This document shows, in pieces, positions 286 through 2,172 of a DNA stretch of 64,000 nucleotides. The DNA comes from Pseudomonas fluorescens Q2-87. Lineage in GTDB: Bacteria > Pseudomonadota > Gammaproteobacteria > Pseudomonadales > Pseudomonadaceae. The notes beneath the pieces were generated by a model, which was given only the letters and a program-made list of their open reading frames with translations, did no database searches and was not told the origin of the DNA. Where the stretch lies: assembly GCF_000281895.1 (NCBI RefSeq), contig NZ_CM001558.1, forward strand, positions 1,182,556 through 1,246,555, given 5' to 3'. Positions within the stretch are counted from its first letter, which is position 1. Each line of letters starts with the position of its first letter. The position numbers were made by a program, and so were the translations under genes.

Positions 286-994
286 TTCCACTATGGGAAA
301 TGCAGGGATCTGTGGTCGCCGCAGAACCAGCGTGGGAGATGGATGATTTTGTGATCGCCGCAGAACCAATGTGGGAGCGGGCTTGCTCGCGAAAGCGGAG
401 GGTCAGTTGATGGAGATGTTGGCTGTGCTGCCGCCTTCGCGAGCAAGCTCGCTCCCACAGGGGATTGGGGGAGATGCATGGTTTTTGTGGTCGCCGCAGA
501 ACCAATGTGGGAGCGGGCTTGCTCGCGAAAGCGGAGGGTCAGTTGATGGAGATGTTGGCTGTGCTGCCGCCTTCGCGAGCAAGCTCGCCCACAGGGGATT
601 GGGGGAAATGCATGGTTTTAGTGGCCGCCGCAGAACCAATGTGGGAGCGGGCTTGCTCGCGAAAGCGGAGGGTCAGTTGATGGAGATGTTGGCTGTGCTG
701 CCGCCTTCGCGAGCAAGCTCGCTCCCACAGGGGATTGGGGGAGATGCATGGTTTTTGTGGTCGCCGCAGAACCAATGTGGGAGCGAGCTTGCTCGCGAAA
801 GCGGTGGGTCAGTTGACGGAGATGTTGGCTGTGCTGCCGCCTTCACGAGCAAGCTCACTCCCACAGGGGATTAGGGGAAATGCATGGTTTTAGTGGCCGC
901 CGCAGAACCAATGTGGAAGCGGGCTTGCTCGCGAAAGCGGAGGGTCAGTTGATGGAGATGTTGGCTGTGCTGCCGCCTTCGCGAGCAAGCTCGC
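286..994. repeat. Tandem array of REP pairs (left part)
   Basis: Five near-identical units of about 136 bp start with ACCAATGTGGGAGC at 365, 501, 635, 771 and 907, preceded by one or two degraded units from ~286. Each unit holds two inverted REP palindromes (GTGGGAGCGGGCTTGCTCGC and its complement) around a spacer that reads GGTCAGTTGATGGAGATG in most units. The array continues after the IS with units at 2220 and 2352. Subtracting 1177 bp for the insertion restores the 136-bp spacing between 907 and 2220. All open frames through it are repeat translations, not genes. Confidence 0.95.
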
Positions 995-1010
995 TTGTAT
1001 GGTAGGACTT

Positions 1011-1165
1011 GAAGGGAGGAGGAGGGACAAGGCTCGATTCTGACTGTTAGCCGCAGTACAGACCGTGGGAGATTTCACCCCTCCTCCTTTCACCCAAGCG
1101 CCGATAAAGAATGCATCTGGCCTAGACCGACGATAGGAACAAGCCTGCGCCTCTGGGTGAACCCT
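1011..1165 (+). ncRNA. Predicted bridge RNA of the IS110 element
   Basis: The 5' noncoding end folds into two loops. Loop one is closed by GGAGGAGGG (1018-1026) and CCCTCCTCC (1079-1087). Inside it are GCTCG (1032-1036), identical to the left target side, and GTGGGAG (1065-1071), complementary to the right target CTCCCAC. Loop two is closed by CACCCA/TGGGTG (1091-1096, 1154-1159) and GCGC/GCGC (1098-1101, 1147-1150). It contains AGAAT (1108-1112), matching the right end of the element, and ACAAG (1139-1143), complementary to CT plus its first bases TGT. This is the target-loop and donor-loop layout established for IS621. RNA ends are approximate and expression is inferred. Confidence 0.75.
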
Positions 1166-1199
1166 TCAAGTGTTCAAACCTTAGCCCGGAGGATTTTCA

Positions 1200-2147
1200 A
1201 TGGCAATGCCGGTTTCTGTCGTAAAGCCGATCGTGGGTGTTGATGTCGCCAAGGATGAGTTGGTGATTTATCACGCAGAAACAGATCGACTCGAAGCGAT
1301 CCCCAACACCAAAGCTGCGATCAAGAAGTGGCTCAAGGCGTTGCCCGCGCCAGTGGATGTCGCCATCGAAGCCACCAATATCTATCACCAGGAATTCGCC
1401 GACCTGGCTTATGCGCAAGGTTGTGTGATCTACATGATCGGCGGCTACGAGCTCAGCCATTACCGCAAAGGTGTCAAAGTTCGCGCTAAAACCGATGCGC
1501 TGGATGCTCGGTTGTTGGCTCGTTACTTGAACAACGAAGGCCACCAGTTGCACCCATGGACCCCGCCATCGCCCCTGTATTGCCGGCTTATAAGCCTTTT
1601 CCGGCGCCGAGCAGCCTTGGTTCAGGCGCGTGTCAGCCTCAAGCAAAGTTGGTCCAACGAACCGTTGCTCAAAACGGCGTTTGAGCACCAGATAAAGGCC
1701 ATGCAACGACTGGAAATCTTGCTCGAGAAAACAATCCAGACGCAGTTGGAAGCAGCTGGCTTGAGCGCTCAGCTCAAGCGTTGCATGAAAGTCGAAGGTA
1801 TCGGCCTATTGAGCGGTGCCCGTTTGCTCACGTCGTTTCAGCGTGGGGATTTCAGAAATGCCGATGCCTTCATCGCTTTTCTGGGCCTAGACCTGCGTAT
1901 ATCGGATTCAGGGAAAAAGAAGGGACGCCGCTGTCTGTCTAAGCGAGGTGACCCAGAGGCACGTCGATTGATGCATAACGCCGCGATGTCGGCGAGACGT
2001 ACAGCGGCATGGAAGGGTTTTTATGAGGCACTGAGGGCCCGGGGACTCAGCACAACCGAAGCATTAGTTGCACTGGCCCGCAAGCTTGCTCGAGTGGTAT
2101 TCGCCCTGCTGAAGAACCAGAGCGAATACTTACCGAAAGGCATTTAA
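1200..2147 (+). CDS. IS110-family transposase (DEDD recombinase)
   Basis: A 315-residue protein with an N-terminal RuvC-like DEDD domain: Asp15 in GVDVAKDE, Glu57 in IEATN, and Asp99 and Asp102 in KTDALDARLLARY. The C-terminal transposase_20 domain (about 195-290) has VEGIGLLSGARLL, AFLGL and an S-G motif near Ser237 that would be the nucleophile. Family enzymes recombine a circular donor with a target under bridge-RNA guidance. The ATG at 1200 follows GGAGG at a good distance. Length and motifs are complete, so the element may still be active. Confidence 0.95.
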   Translation: MAMPVSVVKPIVGVDVAKDELVIYHAETDRLEAIPNTKAAIKKWLKALPAPVDVAIEATNIYHQEFADLAYAQGCVIYMIGGYELSHYRKGVKVRAKTDALDARLLARYLNNEGHQLHPWTPPSPLYCRLISLFRRRAALVQARVSLKQSWSNEPLLKTAFEHQIKAMQRLEILLEKTIQTQLEAAGLSAQLKRCMKVEGIGLLSGARLLTSFQRGDFRNADAFIAFLGLDLRISDSGKKKGRRCLSKRGDPEARRLMHNAAMSARRTAAWKGFYEALRARGLSTTEALVALARKLARVVFALLKNQSEYLPKGI

Positions 2148-2172
2148 GGGGTAGCCCCGCACCATAGAATCT

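Follow-up and report, generated by a model that had tools for sequence, protein, structure and literature searches.

What determines where a mobile element inserts when its host genome offers hundreds of nearly identical sites? This question is raised by a 1,177-bp element that interrupts an array of REP sequences in Pseudomonas fluorescens Q2-87, within the 64,000-nucleotide stretch of DNA analysed here as a whole (the window). The initial annotation had proposed that the 5' non-coding end of the element encodes an RNA that, by the mechanism established for IS621, is read against both the REP target and the element's own ends. We conclude, with a probability of about 95%, that positions 996-2172 are a recently mobile IS110-group insertion sequence whose recombination is guided by a bridge RNA. 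An IS621-type mechanism in a REP-directed Pseudomonas element is supported for the target half by the covariation of guide and site, by a test against REP abundance, and by intact REPs in relatives. The features that enter the argument are:

334-995, plus strand: tandem array of REP pairs that received the element (136-bp unit, 4.9 copies)
994-995, plus strand: CT core, left copy on the target side, read from the sequence; the listed homologues share the step
996-2172, plus strand: IS110-group element, TGTATGG...ATAGAAT plus the right CT core (2171-2172), delimited by copies at different sites and by comparison with an intact REP
998-1003, plus strand: left subterminal inverted repeat TATGGT, which doubles as the -10-like box of a predicted circle-junction promoter
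1007-1171, plus strand: predicted bridge RNA with closing helix 1007-1016/1162-1171 (fold z-score -4.24)
1017-1088, plus strand: predicted target-binding loop, stem 1017-1026/1079-1088, from the fold and a compensated stem position in homologues
1030-1036, plus strand: left target guide AGGCTCG, reading in the same direction as AAGCTCG in the left flank (987-993), from covariation
1065-1071, plus strand: right target guide GTGGGAG, complementary to CTCCCAC (2171-2177)
1089-1161, plus strand: predicted donor-binding loop, stem 1089-1096/1154-1161, from the fold
1108-1112, plus strand: left donor guide AGAAT, identical in sequence to the right end (2166-2170)
1133-1143, plus strand: right donor guide, in which ACAAG (1139-1143) is complementary to CT plus TGT
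1200-2147, plus strand: recombinase of 315 aa with candidate catalytic residues D15, E57, D99, D102, and S237 (PF01548, PF02371, NF033542)
2161-2166, plus strand: right subterminal inverted repeat ACCATA, from a repeat search

The anatomy of the element and its insertion point could be read directly. The left flank ends in GCAAGCTCG followed by CT (994-995), and the element starts with TGTATGG at position 996; at its other side it ends in ATAGAAT (2170), followed by CT (2171-2172) and then CCCACAG. These flank and end sequences confirm the proposal that CT is the sole step duplicated at insertion. An REP is interrupted at this CT step, and the array of REP pairs to which it belongs spans 334-995 and 2173-2400. 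We then compared the locus with the corresponding region in six relatives (L185-L190; L191 from the same search was left out). Over the 900 bases that precede the downstream gene, none of the six showed either end pattern of the element, and two of them (L185 and L188) carry an intact GCTCGCTCCCAC REP between the pair of genes that surround the element in the window. Three others (L186, L189, and L190) carry an REP with a different left half at this locus, while no such REP was seen at the locus in L187.

The host genome holds two full copies of the element, identical over all 1,177 bases and located at two sites, together with one relic. It also contains 328 exact GCTCGCTCCCAC sites, in agreement with the expectation that many possible REP targets are available, and 723 GCCCGCTCCCAC sites; both full copies sit in the rarer type, GCTCGCTCCCAC. 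In the relic (L004, minus strand, about 1084-1602), the donor loop is missing, as are the start of the gene and a large part of its second half. Its guide, AGTCTG, adjoins the flank AGCCCG, and pairing between them needs two U-G wobbles.

The recombinase matches PF01548 and PF02371 in Pfam and scores above the cut-off for NF033542 in NCBIfam. IS621 and ISCro4 were its only relatives of solved structure at E <= 0.001, IS621 being the closest, and the DEDD residues and serine of IS621 (8wt6), whose active-site roles are described by Hiraizumi et al. (PMC11208158), align with D15, E57, D99, D102, and S237. The protein hence combines a DEDD RuvC-like N-terminal domain with a PF02371 C-terminal domain carrying a conserved serine, as is characteristic of IS110 elements. 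The non-coding ends, 204 nt upstream of the gene and 23 nt downstream of it (2148-2170), have the layout of the IS110 group. Assignment to the IS1111 group, which has a downstream RNA and long subterminal repeats, was rejected because the long end lies upstream and the repeats are mostly 6-7 bp.

The four guide-like motifs described in the initial annotation were found where it had placed them, in the order GCTCG (1032-1036), GTGGGAG (1065-1071), AGAAT (1108-1112), and ACAAG (1139-1143). The identity of GCTCG with the left flank holds, although the guide is longer than had been noted and extends over 1030-1036: A1030 pairs and G1031 wobbles with a flank A. Facing the core, the left target guide reads AT (1037-1038) rather than CT, and GC instead of CT comes after the left donor guide. 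If the discontiguous pairing of IS621 is taken as a model, the right donor guide possibly also uses AT at 1133-1134. All four motifs occurred in order in none of 50,000 dinucleotide shuffles of 996-1199 and the two target motifs in 63 of 50,000, counts that taken alone overstate the case because the motifs were chosen after the fact.

Folding of the RNA from 1006 to 1175 gave -67.1 kcal/mol (z = -4.24), a value equalled by one of 200 shuffles, and the predicted fold bears out the placement of the four guide segments within two stem-closed loops. Its closing helix, CTTGAAGG with CCTTCAAG in the window, joins both ends of the predicted RNA. Of 53 distinct sequences, counted by pattern, 26 have A-T, 12 T-A, and 6 C-G at one position of the target-loop stem; one does not pair there, and eight were unreadable by pattern. 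In the inner hairpin, compensations were likewise seen (U-A in 39 and C-G in 4 at one pair, C-G in 42 and U-A in 1 at another; 43 sequences). RNAalifold, applied to a MAFFT alignment of 43 sequences, scored only 3 of 30 pairs as compensated, a low count because the alignment misplaces the target-loop stem, and the stem position was therefore counted by pattern. RNAalifold found no compensated pairs in the closing helix across the 43 aligned sequences; its consensus pairs hardly vary, so covariation lends this helix no support. The predicted fold and the compensations in stem and hairpin thus point to a structured RNA with two internal loops, as is typical of the IS110 group. An Rfam scan of 600-2600 returned 13 matches, none at the gathering score and none to a bridge RNA model; all of these sub-threshold matches were to microRNA families and lay over REP stretches.

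To follow guides and sites across the clade, we collected homologous copies. A genus scan, in which at most five candidates were scored per genome, gave a match in 171 of 398 genomes. From the listed genus matches 100 stretches were taken, and 48 loci (L136-L183) came from named genomes, yielding 142 readable rows; 12 of these were the same copy fetched twice, which left 130 distinct copies from 54 genomes. The guide counts leave out five loci with no readable left end (L159, L160, L176, L177, and L179) and three under the E-value limit of 1e-50 (L181-L183), and L002-L035 were not counted, being, apart from the relic, repeats of copies fetched again. Because the fixed patterns used to locate the element ends contain the CT core, the constancy of CT among copies is built in. 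Guides were identified by their set distance from a conserved loop motif, independently of the flank. Two loci had unusual arrangements: one (L095, in genome G091) has an open recombinase gene and a non-coding end of 119 nt in which the donor loop is missing, and another (L086, in G066) holds two copies about 410 bp apart, gene to gene, whose non-coding ends are identical and whose left flanks agree, as a tandem duplication would leave them.

The comparison that the initial annotation had called decisive, covariation of guide and flank in homologues, came out in its favour for the target half (130 copies, 54 genomes). The covariation was observed directly: the left guide and flank matched at 6.19 of 7 positions on average, compared to 5.06 after shuffling (130 copies, P <= 5e-4), and with one entry per genome at 6.11 compared to 4.85 (n = 54, P <= 1e-4). 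The excess persisted among copies of at least 69% identity (6.67 vs 5.69, n = 27, P <= 1e-4) and among those below 69% (5.56 vs 4.15, n = 27, P <= 1e-4), and no shuffle reached the observed match in any of the four sets. When the guide window was slid by 1 to 12 bases, the match fell to 2.70 or less. Positions -8 and -9 were non-pairing in 115 and 121 of the 130 copies, respectively, and the left guide is thus about seven bases long. The five core-adjacent bases were identical in guide and flank in 93 of 130 copies. With wobbles counted as pairing, 85 copies had no non-pairing position among the seven, 30 had one, and 15 had two or more; these 15 comprise four one-base register shifts (in G382 and G128), L068, L095, and nine without evident reason. 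L068, which is the same copy as L168, has a left flank, TTTGGTAG, unrelated to its guide, and a similar stretch recurs to the right of the element, which suggests a rearrangement. The asymmetry of wobbles was tried as a strand-specific test and was unconvincing (31 wobbles vs 24 reverse-transition mismatches).

The copies carry 18 different six-base left guides. Examples of guide and site are GCCGG/GCCGG (L075), CAAGCCGCC (L104 and L105), left guides GTTCG (L079-L081) and ATTCG (L087-L089), and CGCGG (L116), with the right guide and flank reading GTAGGAG/CTCCTAC in L079-L081 and in L116. At the right side, 127 copies had a flank, and the pair GTGGGAG/CTCCCAC was found in 116 of them. The right flank was changed in nine copies, five of which had matching right guides and four G-T wobbles: GTAGGAG/CTCCTAC accounted for four of the 127 copies, and pairing with a single G-T wobble for another four (three with CTCCTAC, one with CTCTCAC). 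Both copies in G080 combine the right guide GTGAGAG with CTCCCAC, giving one mismatch. A copy from a Woeseiaceae genome (L178), 45% identical, reads GAATAAAG/CTTTATTC at its right guide and flank and has the left guide GGTCCG; it occupies a site that does not resemble a Pseudomonas REP and that its two target guides match. Target guides therefore covary with flanks, as they do in the IS110 group. Right guides pair with the CT core, while the letters of the left target guide opposite the core were AT in 100, CA in 19, CT in 10, and AA in 1 of the 130 copies, so that AT or CA leaves one core base mispaired in 119 of 130. IS621-like core pairing was not found in all four guides; such pairing is a trait of IS621 rather than a mark of the group.

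We also analyzed whether guides follow sites beyond what the abundance of REP types in the host predicts. Among copies in which both guide and site read either GCTCG or GCCCG, the two agreed in 38 of 41 cases, compared to 28.6 expected from abundance (P = 6e-5); copies at other sites (one in G273, one in G213, and two in G139) were left out of the 41. The three misses were two copies in G100 with a GCTCG guide at GCCCG, a U-G wobble, and one in G139 with a GCCCG guide at GCTCG. In four genomes (G000, G039, G183, and G251) two REP types are abundant, and the copies there occupy the one that matches their guide. Furthermore, the guide corresponded to the commonest of five counted REP variants of its host in 18 of 32 genomes, compared to 7.06 after shuffling (P = 5e-5), a proportion that is no survey because the 32 genomes were picked to hold different guides; a guide outside the five variants was scored as a miss, and for GTTCG and ATTCG either right half was accepted.

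These results bear on two other explanations. It is very improbable that the recombinase itself recognises REP DNA or the REP hairpin, while the 5' end is a leader or regulatory RNA whose guide matches are coincidences passed on by descent. Nearly all Pseudomonas copies do sit at one and the same REP position, and a regulatory 5'-UTR and small RNAs are described for the REP-inserting element ISPpu9 (PMC8450116). However, the REP variant that a copy occupies can be predicted from its guide, both within identity bands and against REP abundance, and the distant relative L178 occupies a site unlike REP that is matched by its own two guides. On a tree of the recombinases, at least 22 changes of guide and 19 of target are required. 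Phylogenetically independent pairs numbered at most five on supported branches, too few for significance; averaged over random pairings, the flank changed the same way as the guide in 1.5, 3.0, 3.6, and 3.7 pairs at four guide positions and the opposite way in 0.0, 0.4, 1.0, and 0.0. That agreement of guide and flank reflects ancestry only, related hosts sharing REP types and related elements sharing guides, would fit the many closest relatives in which both are shared and the lack of significance in these contrasts, but is less credible still, given that no shuffle confined to an identity band attained the observed match, that guides and targets have changed this often, that copies in the four genomes with two abundant REP types use the guide's, and that common descent does not account for guide and flank having the same sequence.

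For the donor half, the match of the guides to the element ends is consistent with the bridge-RNA reading; both guides and ends are near-constant in the clade. The 16-mer spanning the junction of right end, CT, and left end occurred in 2 of 398 genomes (L204 and L205), and neither match was a clear circle or dimer. No element ends were apparent by eye around the 16-mer in L204, and we estimate that about one chance match is expected; in L205 the joined 16-mer lies within a rearranged right-end remnant with an inverted partner (about 1466-1517). Joining of the two ends would create a weak sigma-70-like promoter, predicted from four of six matching positions in the -10 box and three of six in the -35 box. 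The mean -35 score peaked at a spacer of 17 bases (3.09 among 57 distinct junctions), the next best of spacers 10-25 reaching 2.39.

In the bridge-RNA reading, the element would be excised as a circle, and the promoter formed only in this circle would transcribe the 5' non-coding end into a two-loop RNA. The first loop would pair with both REP strands around the CT step through the guides at 1030-1036 and 1065-1071, and the second probably with the element's own joined ends through 1108-1112 and 1139-1143. The DEDD/serine recombinase would then join circle and REP at CT, if circle formation and chemistry proceed as we infer.

A further reading goes beyond this mechanism, and we consider its chances to be about even. 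The target half may be under continuing selection to follow the REP repertoire of the host, with lineages re-aiming the left guide at the commonest REP while the donor half stays frozen, and with a conserved single mispair between left guide and core, unlike IS621, that may tune strand exchange. An element can be observed only at sites open to its insertion, and hence the agreement of guides with the commonest REP may reflect filtering as well as adaptation. The clade offers many natural pairs of guide and target in hosts whose target repertoire can be counted, from which the specificity of guides, the mispairs they tolerate, and the natural rate of re-aiming are measurable from genomes. Should the re-aiming reading be true, the REPs of Pseudomonas and their elements constitute a natural reprogramming experiment, replicated many-fold. 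Moreover, bridge RNAs of a slightly different predicted build, with no 5' hairpin and other core pairing, are possible starting points for recombination tools.

The bridge-RNA mechanism is already published for IS621 of Escherichia coli, where Durrant et al. (2024, PMC11208160) also used the covariation approach and Hiraizumi et al. (2024, PMC11208158) likewise described the RNA; what the copies compared here add is a dense set of natural pairs of guide and target. Newer than the published mechanism are the agreement of guides with host REP types and the recurring mispair between left guide and core; we found no report of guides following host REP types in a literature search whose coverage excluded most subscription journals and preprints. 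Like IS621, the element has an IS110-group recombinase, a long 5' end, two loops, a CT core, and an REP target, with guides in the order left target, right target, left donor, right donor and a right guide that pairs over CT. Unlike IS621, its predicted fold has no separate 5' hairpin before the target loop, and in its place a helix formed by the two RNA ends can enclose both loops; such a 5' hairpin is predicted in the RNA of the Woeseiaceae relative. Only 10 of 130 copies have a left target guide that pairs with both bases of the core, whereas IS621 is described as strongly preferring pairing with both strands of the core (PMC11208160). The subterminal repeats, 6-7 bp in 116 of 127 copies, also differ from the 2-3 bp pattern given there for the IS110 group.

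Within Pseudomonas, the closest parallels by description are ISPpu10 and ISPpu9 of Pseudomonas putida, IS110-family elements that, like the window element, use a single insertion point in REPs. Their one-point insertion with a 2-bp duplication established REPs as targets of Pseudomonas IS110 elements (PMC1525189), and ISPpu10 is among six elements with predicted guides in PMC11208160. ISPa11, which targets the REPs of P. aeruginosa, and other elements of the IS1111 group resemble the window element in that an RNA from a non-coding region, the seekRNA, guides insertion (PMC11187229). According to the same source, the RNA of the IS1111 group lies downstream of the gene with the guide order reversed, whereas that of the window element lies upstream, and natural re-aiming has occurred between ISEc11 and ISXne4.
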